From positions 62,001 to 126,000 of the forward strand of contig NZ_JAPNLH010000009.1 of the NCBI RefSeq assembly GCF_026627425.1: a stretch of 64,000 nucleotides of DNA, in the 5' to 3' direction. Shown piece after piece: positions 3,451-51,087 of this stretch (positions within the stretch are counted from its first letter, which is position 1; each line of letters starts with the position of its first letter). The position numbers and the translations under genes were made by a program. The notes under the pieces were generated by a model that saw only the letters and a program-made list of their open reading frames with translations, did no database searches and was not told the origin of the DNA. Source of the DNA: Arthrobacter endolithicus. GTDB taxonomy: Bacteria > Actinomycetota > Actinomycetes > Actinomycetales > Micrococcaceae.

Positions 3451-3495
3451 AACGTTCTCCCTCTGATGGCGCTTATCGTTCGGGTATCGTCGGGC

Positions 3496-5823: not shown

Positions 5824-5887
5824 GGGTTTCGCCCACGGATAGCGATGAATGGCAGACGCCCAGGTCGGGCGCTTGGAGTCCTTGAGC

Positions 5888-6046
5888 CTACCGTCTGTCG
5901 GGGTTTGGCCGATCCGTTCCAGCGTCGGAATCCTCATCCAGGTCTGCAATATCCGGATCGAGGATCTTGGAGAAGTCACCGGCCAGCGAGTCCCGGGCTT
6001 CTTCGTCTTCACTTGCAGGTTCCCGATCCTCTGGAGTTTCGCTCAT
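5888..6046 (-). CDS. Small acidic protein (52 aa), hypothetical
   Basis: A minus-strand frame from ATG (6046) to TAG (5888) encodes 52 residues beginning MSETPEDREPASEDEEARDS and continuing with an Asp/Leu-rich part (KILDPDIADLDEDSD). Composition is strongly acidic and hydrophilic, like the short acidic proteins common in Arthrobacter. A GGA-containing ribosome site is only weakly visible. No domain is recognised. It is convergent with the AMIN-like gene and divergent from the fluoride riboswitch operon. Confidence 0.45.
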   Translation of the reverse strand: MSETPEDREPASEDEEARDSLAGDFSKILDPDIADLDEDSDAGTDRPNPDRR

Positions 6047-6123
6047 GTTGGCAGCTTAGTCCTGCGGTGCGCAGGGGGGAAGGCGCGCTGGCGCGGGGTT
6101 GCGGTGGCCGGGTAAAGTCGAAA

Positions 6124-6195
6124 GCCGGTGATGGATCCCGCCGGAACCGGGTGCCCGGTTCAAACCGCCAGATGGCTGATGGTTCCTGCCTTGAT
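6124..6195 (+). promoter_or_regulatory. Fluoride (crcB-type) riboswitch aptamer
   Basis: The segment matches the crcB RNA consensus in order: GGTGATGG (6127-6134) within a stem closed by 6125-6130/6139-6144; a perfect variable hairpin (AACCGG/CCGGTT, 6145-6160); then AAACCGCC (6162-6169) paired through GCC/GGC across a 4-nt loop; and GGCTGATGGTTCCTGC (6174-6189), where canonical members have GGCTGATGACTCCTGC. It ends about 30 nt before a usp gene followed by two crcB fluoride-channel genes, the classic context. Downstream, CCTGC (6185-6189) can pair with GCAGG (6216-6220) next to the start codon, which could form part of a translational switch. Confidence 0.85.
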
Positions 6196-6221
6196 GAATG
6201 TAAGGTGGGTGAGTCGCAGGC

Positions 6222-6875: not shown

Positions 6876-7381
6876 CATGGGTGGGTGGATCCCGTTCTCG
6901 CGCTGCTGGTGCCTTGCCGGATGATCCGGATCCCGGGCTGGAGCGCCGGAGGCCGCGAAAAGTCCACCTGCATCCCGGCTTCATTGTCCTGGTGATCACC
7001 GGCGGTGCCGTCGGGACTCTGGCGCGCTACGCCCTGACCACGCTCATTCCAGCTCCGCTCGGCTGGCCGCTGCCGACGCTACTGGTCAATGTCGCCGGAG
7101 CTTTCCTGCTGGGCCTGCTCCTGGAGTCATTGGTCCGCCATGGCGCCGACGCGGGGAAACTGCGGATCGTGCGATTGCTCGTCGGAACGGGCTTCATGGG
7201 AGCTTTTACCACCTATAGTTCGCTGGCCCTGGATGCGCATGTGCTGCTGGCGCACGGCAGGATCTTTGGGGCAGCAGGCTACCTCGGAGCGAGTTTGGTG
7301 GGCGGTTTCGGAGCAACCATCGCTGGCATCGGAGCCGGTGCGTGGCGGCACCGACAGCGGTCCGCGGCAGGGGTGCCATGA
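6872..7381 (+). CDS. crcB: Fluoride channel subunit CrcB/FluC (first copy)
   Basis: 169 residues; ATG at 6872 overlaps the usp stop (ATGA). After a hydrophilic 35-residue N-terminus come four hydrophobic segments with family motifs: GGAVGTLARYALT, the Asn in TLLVNVAGAFLLG, and GTGFMGAFTTYSSLALDA, the Phe-box/TTYSS motif that lines the fluoride pore. Fluc channels are dual-topology dimers; Gram-positive bacteria often use two paralogues, as here. The protein exports F- passively across the cytoplasmic membrane. Regulation by the upstream riboswitch is strongly suggested. Confidence 0.93.
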   Translation: MTWVGGSRSRAAGALPDDPDPGLERRRPRKVHLHPGFIVLVITGGAVGTLARYALTTLIPAPLGWPLPTLLVNVAGAFLLGLLLESLVRHGADAGKLRIVRLLVGTGFMGAFTTYSSLALDAHVLLAHGRIFGAAGYLGASLVGGFGATIAGIGAGAWRHRQRSAAGVP

Positions 7382-7746
7382 CGGTGTTGCTGCTCGCATT
7401 GGCTGGCGGGGTTGGTGCAGGCACCCGGTTTTTGCTTGACGGTCTGATCCGCTCGTGGTTCCGCACGTCGCTGCCTTTGGGGACGATTGCCATTAACCTC
7501 ACGGGTTCGCTGGCCTTGGGCTTCGTTGCCGGCCTGGTCCTGACGCAGCACGTCGGATCGGATTTTCAGCTCGTGACCGGCACCGGCTTTCTGGGCGGCT
7601 ATACGACGTTCAGCACCGCCAGCTTCGAAACTGTCCGGCTGATTCAGGCGGGCAGGACGTGGTACGCCGTCATTAATGGATTGGGCACCATGGTGCTGGC
7701 CGTTGCCGCGGCAGGTGCAGGGGTCGCGCTGGCGGATCTGCTCTAG
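7378..7746 (+). CDS. crcB: Fluoride channel subunit CrcB/FluC (second copy)
   Basis: 122 residues; ATG at 7378 overlaps the stop of the first copy (ATGA). Motifs: GGVGAGTRFLLDGLI, TIAINLTGSLALGF, GTGFLGGYTTFSTASFET. It is shorter than the first copy because it lacks the N-terminal tail. The tight coupling of the two genes fits a heterodimeric channel, as known for Gram-positive FluC pairs. It is the last gene of the riboswitch operon. Confidence 0.93.
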   Translation: MTVLLLALAGGVGAGTRFLLDGLIRSWFRTSLPLGTIAINLTGSLALGFVAGLVLTQHVGSDFQLVTGTGFLGGYTTFSTASFETVRLIQAGRTWYAVINGLGTMVLAVAAAGAGVALADLL

Positions 7747-7818
7747 TGGACAGGTGATCGTGCTGTGCTCCCGGTGTTTTCGCACTGCCGGTGGCAAGGA
7801 ATGAAGGAAAGGAGCACC

Positions 7819-8934
7819 TTGCTTAAACTCAACAACCTGCGGGTACCTCTGCTGGCGGCACCGATGGCCGGCGGACCATCCACACCGGCTCTGGTAGCCG
7901 CCGCTGCTCGGGCCGGGGGACTCGGAATGCTGGCCGCCGGCTATAAGACTGCTGCGGCGATGGCGAACGAAATTGAGGTCGGCCGTGAACTGACAGGTAA
8001 TCGACTGGGGGTTAACGTTTTTGTACCGGCGGCCATGGCTGGATCATCCCCTCCGCCCGGCGGTTCCGGCGCGGCGGGCGATGCCGGCGAGGCCGACCGC
8101 GCCGACGAGGCCGCCCGCGCCGCCCGCGTGGCCGACTACGCGCACGTCCTCGAAGCGGAGGCGCAAAGGTATACGGTGACGTTTCCGGCACCAAACCCGG
8201 CTGACACCGACGGCTACGCCGAGAAGATCGACTACCTTCTCCGGCATCCGCTGCCGCTGGTCAGCTTCACCTTCGGGCTCCCGGAGCCGGAGATCGTCGA
8301 ACGACTGCACGACGCCGGAACGCACCTGACGCTGACTGTGACCAACGCTGCCGAGGCGCGCGCCGCCGTCGCCCGCGGAGCGGACAGTCTGTGTGTGCAG
8401 GGGCCGGACGCCGGCGGTCACCGTGGAACCCACGAGGAGGGAAGCCCACCCGGCAGTCGGTCCCTGACCGCGCTTCTGGCGGAATTGGCGCACGTCACCG
8501 GGCTGCCGCTGATCGCCGCCGGCGGGGTCGGGACCGGTGCCGATGTCAGGATGCTCGTGGCTGCCGGCGCGAGCGCTGTGCAACTGGGGACCCTGCTGCT
8601 GCGCTCTCCCGAGTCCGGGGCGCAGCAAGCGCACAAGGACGCCCTGGCCTCGGGCCGGTACACCGGCACGAGCGTGACCCGGGCGTTCTCCGGCCGCCTT
8701 GCGCGCGGTCTGACCAACCGGTTCATCCGTGAGCACGATGGTCAGGCTCCCGCGGCATACCCGGAGGTCAATCAACTCACCCGGCCGCTTCGTGCTGCCG
8801 CGGCACTGGCCGGCGATCCCGATGGCCTGGCACTGTGGGCAGGAACGGGATTTATGCATAGCCGCGCAGAGCCGGCGGAAAAAATCATGGCCGACCTGTG
8901 GCGGGCTGCCTGCCGTCAGCAGACCGCCGATTAG
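7819..8934 (+). CDS. Nitronate monooxygenase family flavoprotein
   Basis: 371-residue FMN TIM-barrel enzyme related to nitronate monooxygenase (2-nitropropane dioxygenase), which oxidises alkyl nitronates. Visible motifs: VPLLAAPMAGGPSTPALVAA at the N-terminus, LGMLAAGYK, VSFTFGLP, DSLCVQGPDAGGHRGTH (phosphate-binding Gly region and the conserved His), LIAAGGVGTGADVRMLVAAGA and GTLLLRSPES. Start set at TTG 7819 because AAAGGAG (7808-7814) is correctly spaced; a longer in-frame start at 7765 has no such site. Real substrates of bacterial members are often unknown. Confidence 0.88.
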   Translation: MLKLNNLRVPLLAAPMAGGPSTPALVAAAARAGGLGMLAAGYKTAAAMANEIEVGRELTGNRLGVNVFVPAAMAGSSPPPGGSGAAGDAGEADRADEAARAARVADYAHVLEAEAQRYTVTFPAPNPADTDGYAEKIDYLLRHPLPLVSFTFGLPEPEIVERLHDAGTHLTLTVTNAAEARAAVARGADSLCVQGPDAGGHRGTHEEGSPPGSRSLTALLAELAHVTGLPLIAAGGVGTGADVRMLVAAGASAVQLGTLLLRSPESGAQQAHKDALASGRYTGTSVTRAFSGRLARGLTNRFIREHDGQAPAAYPEVNQLTRPLRAAAALAGDPDGLALWAGTGFMHSRAEPAEKIMADLWRAACRQQTAD

Positions 8935-8976
8935 CGCAGTAACTCCCGCTGGGGCTCATTGTGGCGGCCCGGGCTC

Positions 8977-10614
8977 TCAGCGCCGCGGGCCTCCGGAAAG
9001 CTCCTCCTCCAGCACCCTGCTCTGTGCCGGTACATCGAGGCGGTTGTTGGTCATGCCGTCAATTTCCAGTGATTCCGGCAGGATATCGCGTTCGATCGTA
9101 GTGGCCAATGGGATTTCCCTGACGAAGCAGAGCAGGACGACGGCGACAAGGACCAGCGGGACCATGTACAGGAACACCGGTGTCAGGGCATCGTTGTAAG
9201 CACCGATGATGACATTGCGGGCCGCGGACGGCAGCTCCCGGACGATGGCAGGGGTGAAGGAGTTGCTGGCATCTGCTGCGCCGGCGCCGGGAGCGGGCAT
9301 GCGTTCGGTCAGCAAAGTGGTCAATCTGGCAACAAACAGGCTTCCCACGATGGCGGAGCCCAAGGACGCACCGATCTGCCGGAAGTAATTGTTAGACGCG
9401 GTTGCCGTCCCGACCTGGGAGATCGGGAACGAGTTCTGCACGATCAAAATGAGAATCTGCATGCTCATCCCGAGCCCGACGCCCATGACTGCCAGATAGC
9501 TGCACAGTACCCAAATAGCGAGTGCGGGAGTCATCGTGGAGAGCAGGACCAACGCGACGGCAACGATGACAGTTCCCACCAGTGGCAGCCATTTGTAGCG
9601 CCCGGTCTTGCTCACCAGCTGGCCGGAGATGATCGAGGTGGCCAGCAGGCCCACCATCATTGGAATCATCAGGAACCCCGCCTCTGTGGCATTGGCCCCC
9701 GTGACCATCTGCAGGTAGGTCGGCAGGTACGCGAGGGCGCCGAACATCGCGATCCCGATGATCAGACCCGCCCCAGTAGTGAGGTTGAAGTTTCGGTCCT
9801 TGAACAGATGCAGCGGCATGATCGGTTCGGCGGCGCGTTGCTCCACGAGCACAAAGGCTGTCCCTGCAATGACAGTGCCGACGATCAGGGCGATGATGGT
9901 CGCGGAGTTCCAGTCGTAGGTGGTCCCGCCCCACGTGGTGACCAGGACGAGGCAGGTCGAAGCGATCGCCAGCAGGCCGATGCCGGCGGCATCCAGGCGC
10001 GGCTTCCTTTTGGCAACCTCGGGCAGGCGGAGGAAGAACATCGCCGAGGCGATGGCCAGGATCCCCAGCGGGATGTTCATCCAGAATGCCCAGCGCCAGC
10101 CGATGCCTTCGGTGAACCAGCCGCCCAGCAGGGGGCCGGCAACTGAGGACAGAGCGAACACGCCGCCCATGATGCCCATGTACTTACCGCGCTCCCGCGC
10201 CGGAACAACGTCGGCAATGATGGCTTGAGAGAGGATCATCAGACCGCCGCCACCAAGGCCCTGGACCGCGCGCCCGATAATGAGCCAGGTCATGTTTTGG
10301 GCAAGACCGCCGACTACGGAACCGACGATGAACAGTGCAATGGCACCGATGAACAGGCCCTTGCGTCCGACCAGGTCGCCAAGCTTGCCGTAGACGGGCA
10401 GCATGATGGTGGATGCCAGGATGTAGGCCGTGGTGACCCAGAGCATGTGGTTCACGCCGTGCAATTCGCCGACGATGGTCGGCAGGGCGGTGCTGAAAAT
10501 TGTCTGGTCTAACGATGCCAACAGCATCGTGACCATCAGCCCGGCGAAAACGAGCAGAATGTTGCGCTTATTCGCTGCCGCCACGGATCGCGGAACTGTC
10601 GGTAACTCGGTCAT
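8977..10614 (-). CDS. DHA2-family MFS drug exporter
   Basis: 545 residues, about 14 membrane segments, EmrB/QacA type. The N-terminal helix carries the family signature LASLDQTIFSTALPTIVGELHG; motif A-like KLGDLVGRKGLF follows helix 2, and GRAVQGLGGGGLMILSQAII lies in helix 4. The ATG at 10614 (MTELPTVPRS) is preferred over an upstream in-frame start because it matches typical family starts. It is divergent from a TetR-family gene, with two operator-like palindromes in the shared promoter region, so repression by that TetR is likely. The substrate is unknown. Confidence 0.93.
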   Translation of the reverse strand: MTELPTVPRSVAAANKRNILLVFAGLMVTMLLASLDQTIFSTALPTIVGELHGVNHMLWVTTAYILASTIMLPVYGKLGDLVGRKGLFIGAIALFIVGSVVGGLAQNMTWLIIGRAVQGLGGGGLMILSQAIIADVVPARERGKYMGIMGGVFALSSVAGPLLGGWFTEGIGWRWAFWMNIPLGILAIASAMFFLRLPEVAKRKPRLDAAGIGLLAIASTCLVLVTTWGGTTYDWNSATIIALIVGTVIAGTAFVLVEQRAAEPIMPLHLFKDRNFNLTTGAGLIIGIAMFGALAYLPTYLQMVTGANATEAGFLMIPMMVGLLATSIISGQLVSKTGRYKWLPLVGTVIVAVALVLLSTMTPALAIWVLCSYLAVMGVGLGMSMQILILIVQNSFPISQVGTATASNNYFRQIGASLGSAIVGSLFVARLTTLLTERMPAPGAGAADASNSFTPAIVRELPSAARNVIIGAYNDALTPVFLYMVPLVLVAVVLLCFVREIPLATTIERDILPESLEIDGMTNNRLDVPAQSRVLEEELSGGPRR

Positions 10615-10674
10615 CGGGTTCTTTCTTCTCCTGTGAGTTGCTGGCATTGCGGTGGGGCTAGAATTGTGTCGGCC

Positions 10675-10715
10675 TTACCGCTCGGTTAGTATCGTACTTA
10701 CCGACCGGTCAGTTA
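10675..10715. promoter_or_regulatory. Paired operator-like palindromes between MFS and TetR genes
   Basis: Two sites with core ACCG-NN-CGGT: TTACCGCTCGGTTA (10675-10688) and TTACCGACCGGTCAGTTA (10698-10715). The cores start 23 bp apart, about two helical turns. They lie in the divergent promoter region of the exporter (minus) and the tetR gene (plus), the usual place for TetR operators. Confidence 0.6.
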
Positions 10716-10756
10716 GCAAGTTGGTCTACCAACCTAAAAAACAAGGGAGGGTCACA

Positions 10757-11329
10757 ATGGGCGCTGCGGCAGCACGCAAAATGGGCGGCACCCGGGCACA
10801 GATCCAAACGGTGGCGCTGCGGCTATTTGCCGACCACGGCTACGAAGCGACCTCCATGCGGGCGATCGCGGAGCAGCTTAGTATCACCAAAGCTGCTTTG
10901 TATTATCACTTCGCCAGCAAGGAAGACATTGTCCGCGCCCTGATCGCGGCGATGCTGGTCCGCACCGCAGAACTCGTCCAGTGGGCCGAGGAGCAGGAAC
11001 CGGGCCCGGCGCTGCGCCGGGAAGTGCTCTCCAGATGGGCCGACATTATGCAGGACCAGGGATTGCGGATGTTTCGTTTTCTCAGTGCCAATCAGGTGGC
11101 GATGCGGGAAATTACCCCGGACAAATCGGGCATGGCAGCGCAGCTGAAACGGCTCTTTGCCATTCTTACTCCACCCAATGCCAGTGTGGCAGACCAGCTG
11201 CGGGCCCGGCTGTCCTTGGCCGTCATCAATATGGTGGGGATGACTGCCTCAGACCTGGATGCCAGCGAGGACGAAATCCTCGCCGCTGCCCGACTGATCT
11301 CCGCCGAACTCCTTCCCAAGCAGTCCTAG
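10757..11329 (+). CDS. TetR-family repressor
   Basis: 190 residues. The N-terminal HTH (about 12-60) reads RAQIQTVALRLFADHGYEATSMRA...LSITKAALYYHFASKEDIV, the TetR signature. The C-terminal ligand domain is unassigned. The ATG at 10757 has AAGGGAGG 8 nt upstream; the frame is open further 5', but that part overlaps the operators. Divergent orientation to the DHA2 exporter suggests it represses that gene and itself, with an exported compound as inducer. Confidence 0.92.
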   Translation: MGAAAARKMGGTRAQIQTVALRLFADHGYEATSMRAIAEQLSITKAALYYHFASKEDIVRALIAAMLVRTAELVQWAEEQEPGPALRREVLSRWADIMQDQGLRMFRFLSANQVAMREITPDKSGMAAQLKRLFAILTPPNASVADQLRARLSLAVINMVGMTASDLDASEDEILAAARLISAELLPKQS

Positions 11330-38608: not shown

Positions 38609-38706
38609 GTTGGGCTCCAAACCTCAGCGAGGAAACATTATCTTGCTAACAATAAGCATACTTGCTACCTTGGCACGAATCGTGAGCGGCTGGCCGCACG
38701 CCCGTG

Positions 38707-38776
38707 CTCAGCCACATGTGCCCAGCCAAATATGCCCAGCCCAATGTGCCCAGCCCAATGTGCCCAGCCACACACG
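38707..38776. repeat. 14-bp tandem repeat, five copies
   Basis: Units CCCAGCCCAATGTG and close variants start at 38707, 38721, 38735, 38749 and 38763 with exact 14-bp spacing. It lies between the DUF1508 gene and a membrane-protein gene. Because 14 is not a multiple of three it cannot code a simple peptide repeat. Confidence 0.85.
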
Positions 38777-40617: not shown

Positions 40618-40649
40618 ACAGCACCGGCGTAGGGAAGGCGTGTGGAAGG

Positions 40650-40750
40650 AACGGGTGCCAGGGGAGCCGGGCGGATGGAACGTGTGCCAGGGGAGCCGGG
40701 CGGATGGAACGTGTGCCAGGGGAGCCGGGCGGATGGAACGTGTGCCAGTT
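40650..40750. repeat. 29-bp tandem repeat, three copies plus partial
   Basis: Units starting AACGTGTGCCAGGGGAGCCG begin at 40650, 40679, 40708 and 40737 (29-bp spacing); the last is truncated. They fill the gap between the coiled-coil gene and the aminotransferase. No spacers separate the units. Confidence 0.9.
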
Positions 40751-40801: not shown

Positions 40802-42076
40802 ATGCCCCAGATGCAATATTCCAGCAAACTCCGAGACGTCCGGTATGAACTCCGCGGCCCCATTCTTCAGGCGGCAAAAGAAATGGAGGCGCAGGGGCAC
40901 CGGATTCTGCGCATGAACCTCGGTGACCCGGCACCTTTTGGTCTGGAAGCGCCGGAATCGATCGTGGTGGACATGATTCATCACTTACGCAGGTCCCAGG
41001 GATACAGCGATTCCAAGGGCATTTTCTCCGCGCGGACCGCGATCTCGCAGTACTACCAAACACAGGGCCTGATGCAGATCGGCGTCGAGGATATCTTTAT
41101 CGGCAACGGCGTGAGCGAACTGATCTCGATGACCCTCCAGGCCTTCTTGGAGAATGGCGACGAAATCCTGATCCCTGCTCCCGACTACCCGCTCTGGACG
41201 GCTGCAGTGACGCTGACCGGCGGCCACCCGGTGCATTACCTGTGCGATGAAGCCAATCATTGGTGGCCGGACATGGCAGATGTCGAGGCCAAAATCACCG
41301 GTCGGACCAAGGGCATTGTCATCATCAATCCCAATAATCCAACCGGAGCCGTTTATCCGCGGCACATCCTGGAGCAGTTTGCCGCCCTGGCCCGCAAGCA
41401 TGACCTAGTGCTGTTTTCCGACGAAATCTACGAGAAGATCCGTTACGAGGACGCCGTGCACGTGCACACCGCCTCGGTGGCCACCGACGTGTGCACATTG
41501 ACATTCAGCGGATTGTCCAAGGCCTACCGGATGCCGGGTTACCGGTCCGGCTGGGTAGCCCTGAACGGCCCGCGCGCTGCCATGTCTGCGTACCGCGAAG
41601 CGCTGGAGTTGCTCGCTTCGCTGCGGCTGTGCGCCAATGTCCCGGCCCAGCACGCCATTCAGACGTCCTTGGGTGGCTACCAAACAATCGATGATCTGGT
41701 TGCTCCGGGCGGCAGACTGCGCCAGCAGCGAGACCGTGCCCACGAATTACTCACAGCGATTCCTGGTGTCAGCGCCGTCCCTGCCGCTGGGGCGATGTAC
41801 CTGTTCGCGCGACTGGACCCGCAGCTTTACCCGATCGAGAACGACGAGCAGTTCGTTATTGACCTGCTTCAGGAACAAAAAATCCTCATCTCGCACGGGA
41901 CGGCGTTTAACTGGCCGACGCCGGACCACTTCCGCTTCGTGATTCTGCCGGCCTTGGAGGACATTGAAGAAGCGGTCCGCCGGATTTCTGCCTTCCTTGG
42001 CTCCTACCGGCGCTCGTCGGCGGCGCGTCTCAGCGGACGGTCCGGGACCATCCAGAGCAGCGCGACGACGGTATAG
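40802..42076 (+). CDS. Alanine aminotransferase-like PLP enzyme
   Basis: 424 residues from ATG 40802 (MPQMQYSSKLRDVRYELRGP); the frame is open further 5' only through the tandem repeat. Fold-type I aminotransferase: LRMNLGDPAPFG, IFIGNGVSELISM, PNNPTGAVYP, LFSDEIYEKI and the PLP Lys in FSGLSKAYRMPGYRSGW. The pattern is that of AlaA/AlaT (pyruvate-glutamate) aminotransferases, which usually end near FLGSYRR; this copy has about 20 extra C-terminal residues (SSAARLSGRSG...), suggesting the original stop was lost. Confidence 0.9.
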   Translation: MPQMQYSSKLRDVRYELRGPILQAAKEMEAQGHRILRMNLGDPAPFGLEAPESIVVDMIHHLRRSQGYSDSKGIFSARTAISQYYQTQGLMQIGVEDIFIGNGVSELISMTLQAFLENGDEILIPAPDYPLWTAAVTLTGGHPVHYLCDEANHWWPDMADVEAKITGRTKGIVIINPNNPTGAVYPRHILEQFAALARKHDLVLFSDEIYEKIRYEDAVHVHTASVATDVCTLTFSGLSKAYRMPGYRSGWVALNGPRAAMSAYREALELLASLRLCANVPAQHAIQTSLGGYQTIDDLVAPGGRLRQQRDRAHELLTAIPGVSAVPAAGAMYLFARLDPQLYPIENDEQFVIDLLQEQKILISHGTAFNWPTPDHFRFVILPALEDIEEAVRRISAFLGSYRRSSAARLSGRSGTIQSSATTV

Positions 42077-42121
42077 GCGGCCAGGTCCAGCAGCGGCTGG
42101 GTCCAGCCTTCTCTTGTTCAT
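42004..42121 (-). pseudogene. Possible remnant of a small membrane-protein gene
   Basis: On the minus strand ATG 42121 gives MNKR, and after a one-base frame change the sequence reads WTQPLLDLAAYTVVALLWMV then PDRPLRRAADERR and a stop at 42004. A single hydrophobic helix followed by PDR and basic residues resembles very short actinobacterial membrane proteins. It overlaps the extended 3' end of the aminotransferase gene, which supports that extension being secondary. Confidence 0.35.
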
Positions 42122-42244
42122 TGGCTCACTAGTTCCGGCGGTCAGTGAGTATTCCGGGGCTATGGAAATTGCCAAGCGGCAGAGACAGCAGCAAGAGCGG
42201 GCGCTGTCAGGCTCAAATGAGGAATTACAACGGCGAGGGCCAGG

Positions 42245-42411
42245 GTGTCGGGGATGCTGACCATCGTGATTGCGTTTGGCGCCAACCTTTTGGTCGCCGT
42301 GGCGAAATCGGTGGCCGCCGCGCTCACTGGCCCGGCGTCGATGACGGCCGAAGCGGCCCACTCCTGGGCGGATACCAGCAATGAGGTCTTCCTGATCATT
42401 GCGGACAAAAG
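42245..42411 (+). pseudogene. Cation diffusion facilitator, 5' fragment
   Basis: GTG 42245 or ATG 42254 begins MLTIVIAFGANLLVAVAKSV followed by AAALTGPASMTAEAAHSWAD and NEVFLIIADK. This is the first helix and the AEAAHSWAD metal-site helix of a CDF transporter (divalent-metal/proton antiporter). The frame runs into the inserted element at 42412. The missing continuation lies at 48188-48940. Joining 42411 to 48193 gives DKRSKKKGDRAHPYG in frame. Confidence 0.88.
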
Positions 42412-42412
42412 G

Positions 42413-42450
42413 GGGGTCGCTTCAGGAAGCGGAAAAATCGACTCTTCTAT
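42413..42450 (+). repeat. Left terminal inverted repeat of the element
   Basis: About 38 bp starting GGGGTCGCTTCAGGAAGCGG. Aligned with the right repeat, 17 of the first 22 positions agree, and AAATCG aligns after a 1-nt gap. Confidence 0.75.
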
Positions 42451-42455
42451 GTCTG

Positions 42456-42900
42456 TCAAGCGGCGTTTTGGTGGTTTTTGTTCTTTGCTGAGGCGTTCAG
42501 GATCCGGAAGACTCGGCGGGCCATGTAGCGTTTGATACAGCGGCGGATTTCTTTGTCGGTTTTGCCTTGAGCGCGGCGTTTCTCGATGTACTCCCGAGTT
42601 TCCTCGTGGTGGGTGGCTCGGCTGATCGCAGCCATATGCAGTGCGCTGTTCAATGCCCTGTCACCGCCCCGGTTGAGCCTGTGCCTGGTCGTGTTACCCG
42701 ATGATGCGGGGATGGGGTTCACGCCAGCTAAACAGGCGAAAGCTGCTTCGCTACGGACCCGCCCCTCGTGCGACCACGCCACCAAGCACTTCGCAGCCGT
42801 CACGGCCCCGAAACCCTTCTTCTGGAGCAGCGGTGCTGCCTCGCTGACCTTGACCAGTTCATCGAGCTTTTTGTCATTGGAATCAAGCTGCTCGTGAGCT
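42456..42900 (-). pseudogene. IS110-family transposase, C-terminal fragment
   Basis: The frame reads (upstream of the first Met) LDSNDKKLDELV, then GFGAVTAAKCLVAWSHEGRV, FACLAGVNPIPASSGNTTRH, LNRGGDRALNSALHMAAISR, and ends in RRVFRILNASAKNKNHQNAA. This is the C-terminal transposase_20 part of IS110/IS116/IS902 transposases (GVNPIPASSG and RGGDRALN motifs). The N-terminal DEDD catalytic half is missing, and a stop lies just before LDSNDK, so the gene is truncated and inactive. It begins only a few bases inside the left terminal repeat. Confidence 0.88.
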
Positions 42901-42904
42901 AGTC

Positions 42905-43067
42905 AGCAAGGCTACCGCAATGACAAAAACTTTTACACCGTGCTTACTCTGGCCGGCGGCCTGCTGATGCTCCTGGGACTTGTCCTTAAGACTGTGAGCA
43001 TCCTTAGGACACCCCGCAAGCAATTCCAACGGGCCCCGCGGCTGATGAAGCCCACGAGGACCCTCAA
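42905..43067 (+). pseudogene. 3' fragment of an unidentified membrane-protein gene
   Basis: A frame without start reads SQQGYRNDKNFYTVLTLAGG, a hydrophobic helix (LLMLLGLVLKTVSIL), and a basic tail ending at TGA 43065-43067. The TGA overlaps the ATG of the next frame (ATGA), the usual operon overlap, which suggests a real gene end whose 5' part was removed by the IS110 event. Family unknown. Confidence 0.45.
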
Positions 43068-43388
43068 ATGACGACTCGTCAGCGCGTAGTACGTCTTTCA
43101 ATGCTCGCACTTGGGTTGGTCTTGATCGCGTGGATCGGCTCAGTTGCCTGGAGCGCCATAGATGAAGGGGCGTTCCATCCGACCCGGCTTTCCGCGCTAT
43201 TCCGCCACCCAGCGAAGCGGGGAAATTTCCGAGGGGTGTGGTTCAGGAGGCTGTTGGCGGGAAATGGTTGTGGAAATCAAACCGCCGCAGACGGCACCAT
43301 CGCTTGCTGCCGAGATGGGGCTGGCATCGGAACGTTGCGAGCCCCTGAACCTATGGACGTTGCGAAAGACCTGCACTGGGATCTCTAA
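43068..43388 (+). CDS. Short membrane protein, probably truncated
   Basis: 106 residues. The first 45 (MTTRQRVVRLSMLALGLVLI then AWIGSVAWSAIDEGAFHPTR) look like a genuine N-terminal membrane segment; the remainder (GNGCGNQTAADGTIACCRDG) reads like out-of-frame or junction sequence. It is coupled by ATGA to the preceding fragment. Probably a gene whose 3' part was lost near 43210. Confidence 0.4.
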   Translation: MTTRQRVVRLSMLALGLVLIAWIGSVAWSAIDEGAFHPTRLSALFRHPAKRGNFRGVWFRRLLAGNGCGNQTAADGTIACCRDGAGIGTLRAPEPMDVAKDLHWDL

Positions 43389-43487
43389 TGACCGCGAGGA
43401 GCTCAAGATCTACTTGCGGTATTCCTTGTTAATTTCCTAGTACTAGAGTGCGCCGCTCGGGCCGCCTCTTGCACTTAAGACGATGGG

Positions 43488-43998
43488 TTATCGTTCTTCT
43501 GTCGTCCCGGAGGAGTCGAGCGACTTCAGATACTCGGCGTTCCCACGCATGGCCGCCTTGTACCGGTCGAGCTTGTCTGAGTGCACGTGATCTGCAAGCA
43601 AAGCCAAGAGGCTCCCGAGGGCGGTATTGACCCGGCCGGCCGCGTGCAGAGTCAGGGACTCGAACGCGCCGAGGGCAACCGAGTCGGGGAACTCCTCACG
43701 AGCGCGGACAAAGACGGCCACCGATTCGTCAAGACGGCCAAGATTGCGAAGAGTGCTGCAGGTAGCACCGGCGACGCACATCACCTTCAAGCCCCGCAGT
43801 CATGGCTCGTTCGTAGAAGCCGAGTGCGGTGGCTTCTTCGCCGGCAGTGTCGTACGCGCCGCCGACTTCGTAGATCACCCGCGGCTCCTCCGAGTGCTGC
43901 TCGTAGAGGGGCAGGAGGGCGGCGATGGTCGGGGCCATGTTGTTCCGATCGCGGGCCGCATAGATTCGGTCAAGCTCGGCGTGCAGTGCTGCGCTCAT
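43488..43998 (-). pseudogene. Tetratricopeptide-repeat protein with frameshift
   Basis: From ATG 43998 the product reads MSAALHAELDRIYAARDRNN with TPR-like EPRVIYEVGGAYDTAGEEAT and ALGFYERAMTAGLEGDVRRR up to CYLQ near 43755. The continuation is in another frame: STLRNLGRLDESVAVFVRAR, DSVALGAFESLTLHAAGRVN, LDRYKAAMRGNAEYLKSLD. The two halves match one continuous protein family of about 165 residues; an 8-bp loss at a GCAG repeat near 43755-43765 would explain the shift (inference). Confidence 0.7.
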
Positions 43999-44553
43999 GG
44001 TGAGTGTCTCCTAGGTTTGCGTGCTCGGGCTCCCCCGCCTGTTGTACGGTACCGACCGCTAGTCGTCTCGCTGGCCGATCGGCTTCCGACACGTCCGGAT
44101 TTGCCGATGGGCCGCTGCGGATCGTCCGCATCGCGTGGGGAATGTCCCTCAATCTCTTTGGTCGTCAGCTCATTTCGGTGACGAGCCGGAACCGCTGGAG
44201 GACTAGCGGGGTTGCGTCATTAGCTGTGAAGGCGGGATCGCCGAGCTCTGCGCAGACCCGGAAATGAGAACTCAAAGATCGGAAGCGTCTTTCCCGGATC
44301 CTAACAGGGAGCACACCACTCGTCGGGCATCGCGGTGGTCAAGTCCGGGAGCGCGCGAGCGGCACCGTCTTTGCCCACCCCGCGTGAGTGCGCAGATCTG
44401 TCGCGATAGCCGAACCCCTACGCGACGATTGAGTCCGGTCCTGAGCATTCAGTGAAATCAAGGCTAGCTCCTGACTGAATTGCACTGCCCGGCGCCGCTC
44501 ACATGAATGGGCCTTATATATACGTACCCCTTTCACATGCACAAGGATGGTCC
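43999..44553. other. Non-coding or unrecognisable stretch inside element
   Basis: Lower-GC sequence with only short open frames. A minus-strand frame near 44180-44270 reads FRVCAELGDPAFTANDATPL and LVLQRFRLVTEMS, perhaps the end of a lost gene. A TATATA-rich promoter-like segment (44514-44523) precedes the CPBP remnant. Nothing else assigned. Confidence 0.4.
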
Positions 44554-45162
44554 TATGACTATCAGTTCGCCGCTTACATCCCAATTCCCTGGCACCTTCC
44601 CAGTGGCCTTCCGGTCCCCGCTAAACTTGCGCCAGCTTGGTTCTCCTCGCAGCTGTCTTGGTGGTCACAATCCTGACGTTCGGTGTAGCCGTGCTTGCCA
44701 TTCTTCTGATACCGGGCGCAAAAGGAGTCGGTCTTGCAGTACTTGGAGTGACTCTTCCCGTTCAAGCTGCGCTGTTACTGATCACTATCCACTGGCGGCT
44801 GCGACGAGAAGACACTGGATGGCGGCAATTGGGCTTCACACGTCCAACGGCGTGCATCCTTCATCTGCTCTAACAGATTCCTTTGATTTTCGTCGCACTC
44901 CTGACTACGCAATTGCTCGCATTTGCCATCACTGGAAATCAACCCGTGCCAGCGAGTAACACAGTTGATTCGCTGGCTGCTGGAACAGAACCGGTGGTCA
45001 CACTCATGCTGTTCATTGGCGTTGCCCTCCTGACCCCGATCTGGGAGGAGGCGATCTTTCGCGGCGTCATTGTTCCACCAGACCCTTTGGGCACCCGCCA
45101 TCATGCACGTCACCCTAAACAGCCTTGTCACCGGCGCCTTGGTCATATCACTTCTGACCTGA
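44554..45162 (+). pseudogene. CPBP (CAAX-like) intramembrane metalloprotease remnant
   Basis: Pieces in different frames follow the order of a CPBP protease: an N-terminal start at ATG 44554, then LVLLAAVLVVTILTFGVAVL (from 44637), LRREDTGWRQLGFTRP, a stop near 44873, then PLIFVALLTTQLLAFAITGN, VTLMLFIGVALLTPIWEEAI with the EExxxR motif (EEAIFRGVI), and in a third frame WAPAIMHVTLNSLVTGALVI ending at TGA 45160-45162. The segment between FRGVI and WAPAIMH is shortened. Multiple frameshifts make it inactive. Confidence 0.7.
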
Positions 45163-45418
45163 TTCGGAGTGTGGTCCCTTGCTACGTAACTTCGATTTCA
45201 TCGAGGCAGAGAAAACCTGATCCATTTCGCGCTAGTCACTTTCAGAAGTCGTCTGCACGAATTAGAGTATTTCTCCGCACTGCATGTCCGTGTGCGTAGG
45301 GGAACGTTCAGCGGCCGATATTTCGCTCTGCAGCGAGATCGTGATCGAGAAGCTCATGCCGCAATATCGTCTCGAATCCGCCGAAAGGTTAAAGGGCGCA
45401 ATTCAACCAGTGGCTGGA
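45163..45418. other. Gap between CPBP remnant and panE-like gene
   Basis: No gene recognised. Short frames on the plus strand continue into the antisense of the panE-like gene and are not believed. Confidence 0.4.
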
Positions 45419-46327
45419 TTACTGGGATTTGGCGAAGAGGCGCTCCAGTTGAGGTGGGGCAGTACCGCCCAACAGGGATCGTACGTCGTGTTGCAGGACT
45501 GGCAGTTCGCTGTGCCGGGAAGCGATTGAGTGCGGGGCGAGTGCCAGACGCCCGAGCTCGCCATCCAACTGGCGGGCCCAATATCGCGTAGCGAACCAGA
45601 CCGGCATCGTCTGGAAGATGACCCGCAACGCAGCCGGGGTAATCGAAACGCCGCGGCTGTCCAGTGCGGTAAACCCCTCACGTACTGCAAGCACAAGTTT
45701 ACGCACGGCAACGCTGTCTGATGCGAGAGCATGCGCATCACCCGACACGGCCGCAAGCGCCGACTCGAACGCCGAAACAAAGACTGCGTGGGTTTTCAGC
45801 CAAGCATCCATATCTTTCGTAGTTGCCACCGGAAACCCGGCGGACTTCAAGACGGAAACAACCATGTCGCCGGCTCTCCCCCAACCGACGGCAGTAGGTT
45901 GTTGACTCACCTGGACGTAATGTACTGTTCCTTGGTTCCCGAGTCGGCCCGCGACGCCGGGGAACACGGCCACGAACCTATCCGCGCCAATCGCTTGCAG
46001 CAACCGGTCTGTGCCCAGAGGAAGGTTGATGAAGCTTGCGACTACATCGGCATCCAACGCACCAAGTGAGACGAGTGCGGCATCAACCTGGTCAAGGCGT
46101 ATGGCTACGAATACAAGATCAGCGTGCCCCGCATCTCCCAAGGTCTCGACGACGCGAGGGAACCCCTGAAGGTCATTAACACCCTCACGCACCAGACGGA
46201 TTCCGTTGGTTCGGAGGTCATCCGTAGCCGCTCCACGGCTGAGTATCGAAACCTCGTGCCCGGCTGAGAGCAGTCGAACTGCGTAAATACGGCCGATCAC
46301 TCCCGCACCGAAAATTAGTATCCGCAC
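45419..46327 (-). CDS. Ketopantoate reductase (PanE/ApbA)-family protein
   Basis: 302 residues. N-terminal NADP-binding motif MRILIFGAGVIGRIYAVRLL, then LVFVAIRLDQVDAAL and VVASFINLPLGTDRL, with the central Lys-like position in MDAWLKTHAVFVSAFESALA. The family reduces 2-dehydropantoate to pantoate, but many members act on other 2-keto or 2-hydroxy acids. In the inward part of the motifs the catalytic Lys is plausible (WLKTH). One of only two intact genes in the element. An upstream 175-bp gap separates it from the SDR gene. Confidence 0.82.
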   Translation of the reverse strand: MRILIFGAGVIGRIYAVRLLSAGHEVSILSRGAATDDLRTNGIRLVREGVNDLQGFPRVVETLGDAGHADLVFVAIRLDQVDAALVSLGALDADVVASFINLPLGTDRLLQAIGADRFVAVFPGVAGRLGNQGTVHYVQVSQQPTAVGWGRAGDMVVSVLKSAGFPVATTKDMDAWLKTHAVFVSAFESALAAVSGDAHALASDSVAVRKLVLAVREGFTALDSRGVSITPAALRVIFQTMPVWFATRYWARQLDGELGRLALAPHSIASRHSELPVLQHDVRSLLGGTAPPQLERLFAKSQ

Positions 46328-46502
46328 GCGAGTCCTTCGGTTCGGGCAGACGATACGCCAGGCGTCGGCGCCTTATATCAGCCTGCTATGGGCCACACGC
46401 AACACATCGTATATCGCATCCGATGGGGATGCCAGAAGCGCCCGCACCGGGAACCACAAGCGGGCATGATTTCGGTTGCTCGAAAACGGTGAACTGGACT
46501 GT

Positions 46503-47261
46503 TTACTTCAGTACCGCTCCGCCGGCGATGTCGAGGATGATGCCGGTAACCCATTCCGCTTGATCACTTGCCAGGTAGACGGCGGCGCGCGCGACATCCT
46601 GTGGAGAACCAAGTCGTCGAAGTGGGTGGGTTTGGGCGAGACGTTCCTGCACCTCGGCGGGGATCATTTGCTCGTTGCGTTCGGTCATTATTGTTTCCGG
46701 GGCGATGCAGTTTACGCGCACTCCCGATGGCCCCGCCTCCGCCGCCAACCATTTGGTCAGCACCTCGATACCGGCCTTCGCCGCCGCATACGCAACCGGG
46801 GACTGTGGAGTTGGGCGGCGAGATGCAGCCGAGGACAACGTCACGATCGACCCACGACCGCGTTGCTTCATCCCGGGCAGGATGGCCGCGATTGTGACGA
46901 ACGTGGCCGTGAGGTTCGCATCAACTGCGGCGCGCCATTCATCCAGACTCATCCGCTCGAGCGGCCCTGGCCTCGTCGGGTTGCCGCCGGCGTTAGCCAC
47001 CAGCACGTCCAATGGCCCGAGGGCGGACCCGATCTCCGTACTAATGCGATCGACAACTTCCGGGGAGGTCACGTCGCCGAGGACCATCACCGCGCGGCCG
47101 CCCGCCGCGATGATGCGATCCCGGACCGCTGCGGTAGCGGCCTCATCACGACCATGCACCGCAACGGCTGCACCTTCTGCTGCGAACTCCGTAGCGATCG
47201 CGGATCCGATTCCCCGCGAGCTTCCGGTCACCAAGGCGACCCGTCCCATCAGCACGCCCAT
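46503..47261 (-). CDS. Short-chain dehydrogenase/reductase inside element
   Basis: 252 residues; ATG 47261 has AAAGGA about 7 nt upstream. Motifs: VALVTGSSRGIGSAIATEFA, LVANAGGNPTRPG (NAG), IVTLSSAASRR, YAAAKAGIEVLTKWL (YxxxK) and DVARAAVYLASDQAEWVTG with a final DIAGGAVLK. Classical NAD(P) SDR. Co-oriented with the PanE-like gene; together they may be a small catabolic cargo. Substrate unknown. Confidence 0.9.
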   Translation of the reverse strand: MGVLMGRVALVTGSSRGIGSAIATEFAAEGAAVAVHGRDEAATAAVRDRIIAAGGRAVMVLGDVTSPEVVDRISTEIGSALGPLDVLVANAGGNPTRPGPLERMSLDEWRAAVDANLTATFVTIAAILPGMKQRGRGSIVTLSSAASRRPTPQSPVAYAAAKAGIEVLTKWLAAEAGPSGVRVNCIAPETIMTERNEQMIPAEVQERLAQTHPLRRLGSPQDVARAAVYLASDQAEWVTGIILDIAGGAVLK

Positions 47262-48149
47262 GGCTGGTCCTTTCCGAGCCTCTCAAACTCATAATGCCAT
47301 CGAGCGGAGAGAGTTCGAACCTCCCGTCGGTGTCACTTGGCTACATCGGCGGGAGTACCTGCCACCGCGAAACCACGCTCCCTCGCGGCGGCATGCCGCG
47401 CACGAACACAAGTGAACCCGCCCTGAAGCGGAACCGCCAACGACGCGGTTCGAGCTGTTGGGTTTGGCGCACGTCGCCTCGGCAAGCTCTCGCCGCCGCG
47501 AGAATCGCGAGCAAGAGGGCCAGATCACAGTGGTCTCTGGGGTACAGCACGATGGCAAGGAGTGCACTACTCCCTGCCCATCTAAAACTATTGCAGGAGG
47601 GGGGGCTTGTCGCAAGACCCCCCTGTGCAGGCAGAATGGTCGATCGCGGCGGCGTACGCGGACATTCGGGACGCTCGCGCCCCGGATATCACGGGCGTTG
47701 ATTGCCGTGAAGCATGCCAAGCGAATGGCGTGCGGTCTCCAGTTCTTTCGGCAACGCCCACTTCGACGTCTACGTCAACCGGGCGGCCGCGAAAGCCGCC
47801 CGTCCCGAATCCTTCAGCGGTTCACAGCCTACCCGCCTCTACGAAATGCACCCACGCAAATGAACTGACGCCTTGAAGTAGGGAGCTCCTGGCATGCAAG
47901 GTCGCGTCCACAATGCTTGGCAGGGCCACCACCTCGCAAGTGCCCGCAAGCGGGTCCTCCACCGAACACGTCATCCGTTGACCTGCTGCTTTGTAAATGC
48001 TGGCTCATGAAGTGTCCGTATGGGGCGTTCGGTGATAAGTCCGGTGAAGGGGCCGCGGGCGCTATACGGGACACTATTTGAGGCCTATCTCGGCTGGTGT
48101 AGCTGCAGTCGTCAAGCGTCGAGCATATGCGGAACGCCGTTCCGAACGT
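47262..48149. other. Degenerate right part of element
   Basis: About 0.9 kb without a convincing gene. One frame near 47735-47865 reads SSFGNAHFDVYVNRAAAKAA then RPESFSGSQPTRLYEMHPRK and a stop; the family is not recognised. An inverted repeat AGTGTCCGTAT (48011-48021) / ATACGGGACACT (48064-48075), listed separately, may be a recombination site. No transposase or resolvase motifs are visible. Confidence 0.45.
48011..48075. repeat. Inverted repeat near right end of element
   Basis: AGTGTCCGTAT and ATACGGGACACT are inverted copies differing by one inserted base, with about 42 bp between them. Resolution sites of Tn3 elements contain inverted TGTC...GACA-type half sites, so this could be a res remnant; a regulatory or chance palindrome is also possible. 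Confidence 0.35.
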
Positions 48150-48187
48150 TTTATTGTACGATTTATTCCGTTTTCTGTGGCGACCCC
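48150..48187 (-). repeat. Right terminal inverted repeat of the element
   Basis: Read inward on the minus strand it starts GGGGTCGCCACAGAAAACGG and continues AATAAATCG. The CAGAAAACGGAA core is shared with known Tn3/Tn21-type terminal repeats. Confidence 0.78.
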
Positions 48188-48940
48188 AAGAGATCAAAAA
48201 AGAAGGGCGACCGGGCCCACCCCTATGGCTAAAGCCGTGAGGCGTACTTCTGGTCGATGCTCGCTGCGTGCGGGCTCTTCACCGCCGGTGCCGTCGTGTC
48301 CATCATGCACGGGGTCCAGCAGCTTTTCGCACCGGAACCGGCCTCGGATTTCCTGATTGCCTATCTCGTCCTGGCGGTTTCGTTTGTGCTGGAGGGTACC
48401 TCCTTTCTACAGGCCCTGCGCCAGGCCAGGAAGCTCGCGGCGCGGCACCAGCGGGGCCTTCTCGAGGACGTTGTGCTCGGCTCCGATCCCACCTTGCGGG
48501 CCGTGTTTGCCGAGGATTTGGCTGCCTTGGTTGGCATAGCCATGGCTTCCGCGGGGATCTTCCTGCACCAAGTGACTGGATCGCCGGTCCCAGACGCGCT
48601 GGGGTCGATCCTGGTTGGCCTCCTGCTGGCCGTCGTCGCCGTCGTCCTCATCGACAGGAACCGCCGCTTCCTGGTTGGGCAGGCTGTTACTCCCGAGCTT
48701 GAGCGATCCGCCCTCCGGATGATGCTGGAGCATGAGGACATAGAGCGCGTCACCTATATTCACCTTGAGTTTGTGGGCCCTAACCGGCTGTACCTGGTGG
48801 CCGCTGTGGACATGGCGGGCAACTGTCCGGAGAGCAGCGTCGCTCTTGCGCTTCGCCGGGTGGCAAAAGAAGTTCAGGCCAATGATCTGGTCGAAGAGGC
48901 CGTCCTGACACTGGCGACCGGCGAAGAGATCTCGCTTTAG
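48188..48940 (+). pseudogene. Cation diffusion facilitator, 3' fragment
   Basis: Continues the CDF transporter cut at 42411. After the target duplication the frame reads KKKGDRAHPYG, then an in-frame TAA at 48230 where family members have Tyr, then SREAYFWSMLAACGLFTAGA. Further helices (YLVLAVSFVLEGTSFLQALR, DLAALVGIAMASAGIFLHQV, GSILVGLLLAVVAVVLID) and the soluble C-terminal domain (GPNRLYLVAAVDM, LATGEEISL) follow. Apart from the TAA the 3' part is open, so a shortened protein from an internal start near 48257 is conceivable but would lack the first metal site. Confidence 0.88.
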
Positions 48941-49022
48941 GAGGATGCGCTGTAGCCAGCCCGGACGGGGCTGAGTAGGGTGGCTGAAAGGAAACAGCAG
49001 CAGCCATCGGAAAGGTTGAAGT

Positions 49023-49517
49023 ATGAGCGAAGATAACATTCCCGACGGACAGGTTCACGAAATGGGACTGAACATATTCAGCGATACCTCTGACATGCCG
49101 GATGCCGCTGGTCCCGGAACAGCAGACCCGGCAGCGGACGATGATCCGTCAACGCCCGGGGCGAACGGCCTCGATCCGCTCAGCGGGCGCGGCCCGGATG
49201 ATTATCCCGGCGCAGCCGAAAACAACCCTGATCGCTGGCGCGACGATCCGCTGATCCAAGGCGATACCCTGTCGGCGGATTACTTTAGTTCCGAGCAGTA
49301 TCTTCAGGATCAGACGGATGAAGCCCGTTATGAATCAGGCGAAGAGCAGATCCCATCCGACGAACCGACAATCGGTGAGGCATCCGCAGACATTGACTTT
49401 GGTGAAACTCCCACGGGAGATGAAGCCGATGGCAGTGACGACGAGGCAAACTTCGGCGGCTCAGGGTTGGGTCGTTTCGGAGCAGAGATCCCGGATCCGG
49501 ATGATCTTCAGGCGTAA
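49023..49517 (+). CDS. Acidic low-complexity protein, hypothetical
   Basis: 164 residues rich in Asp, Glu, Gly and Pro, predicted largely disordered. Recognisable parts: VHEMGLNIFSDTSDMPDAAG, DPLSGRGPDDYPGAAENNPD, DRWRDDPLIQGDTLSADYFS. AAAGGTTG-type site just upstream of the ATG. Similar acidic proteins are common in Arthrobacter genomes without assigned function. Confidence 0.75.
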   Translation: MSEDNIPDGQVHEMGLNIFSDTSDMPDAAGPGTADPAADDDPSTPGANGLDPLSGRGPDDYPGAAENNPDRWRDDPLIQGDTLSADYFSSEQYLQDQTDEARYESGEEQIPSDEPTIGEASADIDFGETPTGDEADGSDDEANFGGSGLGRFGAEIPDPDDLQA

Positions 49518-49680
49518 TCCTGCGGACCGGGGCGCAGCGCGGAAAGGGGCGCCTTTGGTGCGAAGCTGCCCGCGACATAAGATCATTACTGTTTGGTGAA
49601 ATCCCGGCCGGCACGATCCGCGGGTAAGGACATCCAGACAGTTTGACAGTCCGCAGTTGACCTCTCAGATTGGATCACGG

Positions 49681-51087
49681 GTGGATCTCACCTTCATGGT
49701 CGTGCTTGTCATAGCGCTGGCTCTCTTTTTCGATTTTACGAACGGGTTTCACGACACGGCCAATGCCATGGCCACGCCCATCGCCACCGGAGCCATTAAA
49801 CCGAAAACGGCAGTGGCGCTGGCAGCGGTGCTCAACCTGATCGGCGCCTTCCTCTCCACCGAGGTGGCCAAGACCATATCCGGCGGTCTAATCCGGGAGG
49901 GCAGCGAAGGAGTGCACATAACGCCTGTGCTGATTTTTGCCGGCCTGATGGGGGCGGTGTTGTGGAACCTTGTCACTTGGCTGTTCGGATTGCCTTCCAG
50001 TTCCTCGCATGCCCTCTTTGGCGGCCTCATCGGTGCAGCCGTCGTGGGGATCGGCTTGCACGCGGTGGACCTCAGCGTGCTGCTTTCCAAGATCATCCTG
50101 CCCGCCGTAGTGGCCCCGCTGATTGCCGGGGGTGTTGCGTATCTATGTACCCGGCTCGCTTACGGCATTACTCGACGGACGGACCCGGACTCCGGGGACA
50201 AGCTGGTGCAAAAGCGCGGCGGATTCCGCTATGCCCAGGTCTTCTCCTCCTCGTTGGTGGCGCTGGCACACGGCACCAACGATGCGCAGAAGACCATGGG
50301 CGTCATTACCCTTGTGCTGATTTCCGCGAACATGCAAAAGGTGGGATCGGGTCCGGAGCTCTGGGTGGTCGGCGCCTGCGCTCTGGCCATCGCTTTGGGA
50401 ACCTACACGGGAGGCTGGCGGATCATCCGCACTCTCGGCAGCGGTCTGACAGACGTTAAGCCGGCCCAGGGCTTTGCCGCGGAAACCAGTACCGCCGCAG
50501 CCATTCTGGCCTCATCGCACCTCGGCTTTGCGCTGTCCACCACCCATGTGGCTTCGGGGTCAGTGATCGGTTCCGGTCTCGGACGGACGGGTTCCACCGT
50601 GCGGTGGGGGGCCATCGGGAAGATTGCACTGGGCTGGCTTTTTACCCTTCCGGCTGCGGCCATTGTGGGTGCGCTGGCCGCGCTTATTGCGAGCCTGGGG
50701 ACGACCGGGGTGCTGATTGACGCCGTCGTCGGACTTGGCGCTATTCTCTTTATCTTCTTTCGGTCCCAGCGTGGCCGCGTGGACCATGCGAACGCCATCA
50801 GCGACGTCGACGCCGTCGGCGAGACGGTCCACATCCCGAGTAAGAAAGAGCGCGACAGGCTTGCGGCCAAGGCCCGTCTCGCCGAACGGGCGGCGGAAAA
50901 GGCCGCTGCCAAGGCAGTGGAGAAAGCGGCGGCCAAGGTCGCGGCACAAGAAGCGGCAGAGCGTGCCGCAAGAGCCGCAGACGGTGCGTATGCGACCGGG
51001 AACGTGGCACCGGCGCGGGTGACGCCGAAAGTTCCGAAGGCGCCGCAGCCCGATCAATCCGCCGCCAAGCAGGAAGGTACACCATGA
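49681..51087 (+). CDS. pit: Low-affinity inorganic phosphate transporter (PiT family)
   Basis: 468 residues from GTG 49681 (MDLTFMVVLVIALALFFDFT); a TTG 24 bases upstream is less typical. The duplicated PiT signature is present: FDFTNGFHDTANAMATPIAT near the N-terminus and SLVALAHGTNDAQKTMGVIT in the second half; GLPSSSSHALFGGLIGA and LSTTHVASGSVIGSG follow each. About ten membrane helices, then a charged Ala/Lys-rich tail of about 110 residues (KARLAERAAEKAAAKAVEKA), likely cytoplasmic. Imports phosphate (with metal) by proton symport. Confidence 0.93.
   Translation: MDLTFMVVLVIALALFFDFTNGFHDTANAMATPIATGAIKPKTAVALAAVLNLIGAFLSTEVAKTISGGLIREGSEGVHITPVLIFAGLMGAVLWNLVTWLFGLPSSSSHALFGGLIGAAVVGIGLHAVDLSVLLSKIILPAVVAPLIAGGVAYLCTRLAYGITRRTDPDSGDKLVQKRGGFRYAQVFSSSLVALAHGTNDAQKTMGVITLVLISANMQKVGSGPELWVVGACALAIALGTYTGGWRIIRTLGSGLTDVKPAQGFAAETSTAAAILASSHLGFALSTTHVASGSVIGSGLGRTGSTVRWGAIGKIALGWLFTLPAAAIVGALAALIASLGTTGVLIDAVVGLGAILFIFFRSQRGRVDHANAISDVDAVGETVHIPSKKERDRLAAKARLAERAAEKAAAKAVEKAAAKVAAQEAAERAARAADGAYATGNVAPARVTPKVPKAPQPDQSAAKQEGTP

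Follow-up and report, generated by a model that had tools for sequence, protein, structure and literature searches.

In Arthrobacter endolithicus, a gene for a cation diffusion facilitator (CDF) transporter is split in two by an insert of 5,776 bp. The window analysed here is a 64-kb stretch (C72:62001-126000) of a genome of 3.96 Mb in 72 contigs, and coordinates refer to the window unless another source is named. The 5' part of the gene lies at 42245-42406 and the 3' part, which has its own stop inside, at 48193-48940, both on the forward strand. Both halves match Pfam Cation_efflux (PF01545), at 42245-42535 (E 4.5e-07) and at 48257-48940 (E 6.3e-14). DNA matches to the right part were present in 22 of 148 genomes, the own genome counted, and the best of the others came from Arthrobacter terrae Z1-20 (G004), with 87% identity over all 748 bases. 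There, the aminotransferase-CDF-PiT neighbourhood is contiguous and the CDF gene is uninterrupted. This gene is 93.6% identical to the left part over 42251-42406 and 86.8% identical to the right part over 745 bases, in which the window has one stop and no indel. An earlier note on this DNA had assigned both halves to one gene, and this holds, since each half carries PF01545 and aligns to the same uninterrupted gene. Among plasmids, the 5' flank of the CDF gene found distant matches only, in 5 records.

The A. terrae genome also provides the empty site. Window positions 41001-42411 (88.2%) and 48187-49700 (84.5%) align to abutting DNA there, and the intervening element is missing. The empty site reads ...ATTGCGGAC-AAGAG-ATCCAAAAAG..., with the core GCGGAC-AAGAG-ATCC. 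At the left border of the insert, the window has GCGGAC-AAAAG followed by GGGGGTCGC, and at the right border it has GCGACCCC-AAGAG-ATC. Because AAGAG is single in the empty site and the insert has a copy at each border, the 5-bp target duplication is real; the right copy (48188-48192) is exact and the left copy (42407-42411) reads AAAAG, with one base changed. The insert has a run of five Gs at its left end versus four at its right end, and thus spans 42412-48187, or starts at 42413 if the extra G belongs to the flank. The earlier note had proposed exact boundaries, a duplication with one altered base, and a restored DK/RSKKKGD junction, and had suggested seeking an intact CDF gene in related genomes with the CDF sequence. 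A search with the right CDF part led to the A. terrae gene, and its empty site bears out the boundaries, the duplication, and the junction.

How recently was the gene broken? The CDF frame holds an additional TAA stop at 48230-48232, where A. terrae encodes Tyr. Compared with A. terrae, the right part differs at 17 first, 12 second, and 69 third positions of codons (69 of 98 at the third); 61 codons differ synonymously and 27 non-synonymously. The 10 differences in the left part (5, 0, and 5 by codon position) are too few to judge. For the neighbours, the synonymous and non-synonymous counts are 74 and 17 in the aminotransferase gene, 65 and 5 in the PiT gene, and 43 and 32 in a short ORF at 49023. 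From these codon comparisons, we infer that coding constraint still held while most of the CDF divergence arose, and that the break is late compared with the split from A. terrae.

The insert has the ends of a Tn3-family element. We took the plasmid pAG1 and the genomes of relatives as the reference for comparing repeats. The right terminal inverted repeat (48150-48187, reverse strand, GGGGTCGCCACAGAAAACGGAATAAATCGTAC...) was located by pattern and weight-matrix match and is complete, at about 38 bp beginning with GGGG. The left repeat (42413-42439, forward strand), located by comparing the ends, retains 27 bp, with a further G at 42412, and is cut at 42440 by the end of an IS110-family element. 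The two inverted ends pair over 25 bp with 80% complementarity. A weight matrix made from repeats of other genomes gave 21.8 for the left end and 46.7 for the right end; when the window was shuffled 10 times by mononucleotide, the top site per shuffle scored 6.0-13.8. A pattern made from both ends matched 5 sites in the own genome, these two and three others (up to 3 mismatches), and the reversed pattern matched 0.

Directly abutting the left repeat is the 3' terminus of the IS110-family element, of which the 3' part remains (42440-42893, reverse strand). It carries the Transposase_20 domain (PF02371, E 3.4e-16 in 42456-42803) and the conserved terminus of its subfamily, ...GACAGACATAGAAGAGTC, which ends at 42440. 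The same terminus occurs in homologues: the motif was present in 29 of 30 homologous loci, with variants allowed and the whole locus searched, and the flanks of these loci are unrelated (a 31st locus, L048, was omitted because its match does not reach the end). IS4321 and IS5075 target Tn21-type repeats. We considered similar targeting of Tn3 repeats by this subfamily and rejected it: the best similarity of a flank to three Tn3 repeats was 15 of 28 positions, and the others had 5-12. Given this low similarity, the landing of the IS110-family element looks like chance rather than target choice.

The rest of the interior consists mostly of broken genes. A TPR-protein gene (43488-43998, reverse strand; PF12688, E 1.8e-06 in 43729-43998) has an interrupted frame and 75% DNA identity to genome G294 over 43514-44024. 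A small-gene remnant (44077-44358, reverse strand) is missing a 285-bp internal segment and is otherwise 92-93% identical to A. terrae contig C15. The ORF at 44883-45299 (forward strand) may preserve part of a CPBP/Rce1-type protease gene, with a PF02517 match below the cut-off (E 0.0009) in residues 40-65 only. Two oxidoreductase frames are open. One is ketopantoate-reductase-like (PanE-like; 45419-46327, reverse strand, 302 aa; PF02558, E 6e-12, below NCBIfam cut-offs), and the other belongs to the SDR family (46503-47261, reverse strand, 252 aa; PF13561, E 1.6e-58, with NF005559 above its cut-off). The cargo as a whole unit was not found in relatives, and single genes or pieces of it occur in 25 of 296 genomes, the own genome counted. 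With an interior of mostly broken genes and two open oxidoreductase frames, and a CDF gene with a stop of its own, the element is a fossil.

Near the right end lies a res-like site (47940-48075, forward strand) with subsites I, II, and III, whose limits were drawn by eye; site I is at 47940-47967 and site III is on the side of the right repeat. Its homology with the res of pAG1 and with the tnpR-adjacent res of A. terrae and genome G154 makes it a putative res. A spacer (48076-48149), common to other tnpA-less copies, separates it from the right repeat at the place expected for tnpR and tnpA. By-eye comparison of the spacer with tnpA and tnpR gave no recognisable likeness. The element contains neither a gene for a DDE transposase (TnpA) nor a resolvase gene, and tblastn with TnpA and TnpR of pAG1 (E 1e-3) found no match in the 64-kb window. 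In the own genome, there is a single PF01526 match, covering 37 profile positions, on another contig, and its PF00239 matches are on other contigs. The earlier note's description as a Tn3-like element with Tn3-type ends stands, with two refinements: the element is a non-autonomous derivative that lacks tnpA and tnpR rather than a complete transposon, and an IS110-family insertion has cut its left repeat.

Tn3-derived mobile insertion cassettes (MICs) have Tn3 repeats, a target duplication, and cargo genes, and no transposase. The window element is like MICs in all of these features, with Tn3 repeats and a duplication around cargo, and unlike them in its res, its IS110 scar, and the decay of most of its cargo. 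It is not a TIME in the sense of a short, geneless element, as it is 5,776 bp long and has two open frames that match protein families. In the available portions of two papers (PMC4133298; PMC13367494), TIMEs, TIME-RES, and TIME-COMPs have non-autonomous Tn3-type ends and 5-bp duplications, as the window element does, and IS101 and TIME244 also contain res or res-like sites. The window element differs in size from TIMEs (5.8 kb versus 262 bp), lacks the resolvase gene of TIME-RES, and has one recognised module, next to a left end truncated by IS110, where TIME-COMPs have a pair of miniature elements.

The right end is a module that recurs in other surroundings. We define it as the repeat, the spacer of about 75 bp, and the three-part res, together the last ~245 bp of the element. 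In the own genome, contig C24 has it nearly whole (77%) and C22 has it without the repeat (84%), while C21 and C12 have res only (72% and 71%) and C44 has the repeat only. Across 296 genomes, 14 (the own genome counted) have matches, in at least 20 places, counting the window itself, four places with the repeat only, and three with short pieces; this survey is a lower bound, with two candidates scored per genome. Among plasmids, the right end of the window element had no match. When seven copies were aligned, the repeat was recognisable in the window, Paenarthrobacter sp. Z7-10 (G001), own C24, and contig C42 of Paenarthrobacter sp. PH39-S1 (G002), and not in own C22, A. terrae C56, and genome G185. 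The match stops at base 245 in 10 of the 15 copies compared, just within the outer edge of site I (221-248 in window numbering). In the copies of the window, Z7-10, and C24, some 75-80 bp of spacer lie between res and the repeat, where tnpR and tnpA are expected; in G154 and A. terrae C19, such a res adjoins the start of tnpR.

Which transposon could have supplied these ends? The pAG1 transposon of Corynebacterium glutamicum (NC_001415, L156:3924-7823) has terminal repeats of the same kind as the window element and a three-subsite res, in the order IR-res-tnpR-tnpA-IR. Unlike the window element, it carries both tnpR and tnpA, without further annotated cargo, and its res sits close to the left repeat and before tnpR, whereas the res of the window element is at the right end. 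A. terrae carries a tnpA that has decayed and that ends, on its 3' side, in a repeat of this kind; over 260 residues, the start of the open stretch of this TnpA and the TnpA of pAG1 are 81% identical. Among the 26 of 30 tnpA loci of relatives that were scanned, 1.5 kb on either side, a matching repeat was seen at two places only (A. terrae and G221), both remnants. Complete transposase-bearing relatives were seen on plasmids only, and NZ_CP047205 has an identical left end.

Since genes for a transposase and a resolvase are missing and the end module recurs with other surroundings, we interpret the element as a non-autonomous Tn3-family cassette (IR - cargo - res - spacer - IR, without tnpA and tnpR). 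It is MIC/TIME-like, inserted in the CDF gene with a 5-bp duplication, and was probably moved in trans; we place the probability of this reading at about 77%. A Tn3 transposase of the pAG1 or A. terrae type, supplied in trans, would have pasted the element by replicative transposition, and a matching TnpR would have resolved the cointegrates at res. The end module would most likely derive from a pAG1-like ancestor with the order IRL-res-tnpR-tnpA-IRR, in which a deletion removed tnpR and tnpA and brought res site III close to the right repeat; this origin is suggested by gene order, the spacer sequence itself being unrecognisable. The cargo adjoins res site I and could probably be exchanged there by TnpR. 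The IS110-family element truncated the left repeat, and decay reached most of the cargo genes, in one order or the other. The element cannot move itself and is probably no longer movable. The search yielded one further tnpA-less element of this group with IRs at both ends, in Z7-10.

An unlikely alternative is that a complete Tn3 transposon inserted and then lost tnpR and tnpA in place through IS110 activity and deletion. The interior is indeed decayed and mosaic, and an IS110 element did enter the left repeat. However, the missing genes are expected between res and the right repeat, yet the shortened module there is common to copies with other cargo, so that the genes should have been lost before this insertion. 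Little decay is seen in the CDF halves, too, with one stop, no frameshift, and mostly third-position changes in the right part. It is less probable still that ordinary chromosomal DNA was moved as a TIME-COMP, a composite between two miniature Tn3 elements, as described in the available portions of PMC4133298 and PMC13367494. The right end does resemble a miniature element with res, and the interior resembles assorted host-type DNA. However, only one spacer-res module is recognised in the element, and comparison with the rest of the window yields no second one at the IS110-shortened left end, where IS110 may have removed one; moreover, the other end of the Z7-10 element is of a different type, resembling the left end of pAG1. 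A split by recombination or assembly error has next to nothing to commend it, as no supporting point was found and the 5-bp duplication, the Tn3-type inverted ends exactly at the borders, and the contiguous empty site in a congener all argue against it.

In an Arthrobacter-like actinobacterium, the insertion of a transposase-less Tn3 cassette is here located to the base and proven by an empty site. Such cassettes are also linked to a single end module that is found with various cargoes. The literature compared (available portions of PMC4133298, PMC13367494, PMC7157771, PMC3414803, and PMC10214605) takes its non-autonomous examples from Pseudomonas and Enterobacteriaceae, and a search judged by titles found no work on non-autonomous Tn3 elements in Arthrobacter. 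Elements of this type (MICs and TIMEs) and cargo exchange at res are already known.

Can cargo be exchanged between elements of this group? The element in Z7-10 is 4,151 bp long (L108:8739-12889), has two repeats and the same right module, and lacks tnpA; the draft genome has no PF01526 match. It carries genes for ApeA (PF18862, E 3.2e-49, and PF18739), DUF2975, and DUF3800. GAGGG borders it on both sides, the run of Gs being slightly altered on the left. The right flank was found in 0 of 58 other genomes searched, so that its borders are drawn from the repeat pair and GAGGG alone. Positions 224-2764 of this element, which hold ApeA and DUF2975 and not DUF3800, differ from A. terrae C19 by 5 substitutions and one gap (99.8% identity). 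In contrast, 18 of 102 sites differ in the adjoining res (positions 122-223; 82% identity). The nearest differences on either side of the switch are at 223 and 305, which confines it to 224-304, and this interval holds the centre of site I (227/228; site I at 214-241). This pattern suggests resolvase (TnpR)-mediated cargo exchange at site I, and homologous recombination within 224-304 may be an alternative. Exchange of a transposon left end at res site I is described for other Tn3 transposons in the available portion of PMC7157771, with an identity break at site I between two elements as seen here. Unlike that case as reported there, one partner of our pair is tnpA-less and the shared cargo includes an ApeA gene. 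With this pair, the exchange of cargo at res site I can be tested directly.

At the other end, the Z7-10 element, own C22, and own C12 are pAG1-like and, by eye, run into a site-I-like palindrome before the cargo. These are 3 of the 10 other repeat-bearing ends compared, and cargo between two site-I-like sequences is not clear in the remaining 7. BLAST supports this arrangement weakly in C22 and C12 (E 0.007 each) and not in Z7-10. A C. occultum plasmid aligns to the pAG1 query over bases 1-102 of 214, so that here, too, the match breaks off within site I (80-107 of the query). As a tentative idea that we hold to be somewhat doubtful, the window element may belong to a cargo-shuffling pool in Arthrobacter and Paenarthrobacter, in which tnpA-less ends (IR-spacer-res) and autonomous transposons would swap cargo through crossovers that TnpR makes midway in site I. 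Cargo between site-I-like sequences would then behave like cassettes between attachment sites, and the ApeA antiphage cargo could have moved in this way between two species.

The own genome also retains a relative of the pAG1 resolvase. On contig C11, a TnpR relative is 69% identical to it over residues 9-189, and identity to pAG1 TnpR is 32-34% for the other serine recombinases compared. The C11 gene is interrupted after codon 8, and resolvase genes in this group are a landing site of another element.

A miniature element, roughly 235 bp long, sits inside serine resolvase genes. Its insertion point is nearly constant and lies after approximately codon 8 of the gene, at a GY|ARVS motif. The genome from which the window comes has such an insertion (contig C11, 344089-344320). 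Across 296 genomes, with two candidates scored per genome, the search found at least seven places of this kind (loci L183-L189), four of them with whole copies and three with a single end only. All seven places found adjoin a resolvase frame whose match starts at residue 9-11, and these resolvases share 32-86% identity with TnpR of the Tn3-family transposon on the Corynebacterium glutamicum plasmid pAG1. In Arthrobacter terrae Z1-20, this same resolvase point is occupied by an insert of about 8.2 kb (locus L122, about 2895-11076). The insert carries an ABC transporter gene and three large ORFs in succession, of which one matches Phage_integrase above the cut-off, one matches below it, and one has no match. 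It resembles recombinase-in-trio elements.

The tnpA-less Tn3 element of Paenarthrobacter sp. Z7-10 carries an ApeA-type HEPN antiphage gene as cargo (locus L108, 9211-10683). The stretch with this gene is common to two species, recurring in A. terrae (contig C19) with 99.8% DNA identity.

Elsewhere in the window's own genome, a lone Tn3-type repeat (locus L015, 6968) appears to break a reading frame that we labeled glutaredoxin-like by eye. Within the window, a fluoride riboswitch (RF01734, 40.4 bits) lies on the plus strand at 6118-6195. There are also two tandem repeats, one of 14 bp in 4.8 copies (38704-38770) and one of 29 bp in 3.6 copies with 97% matches (40644-40748), the latter located where an ORF holding an aminotransferase begins.
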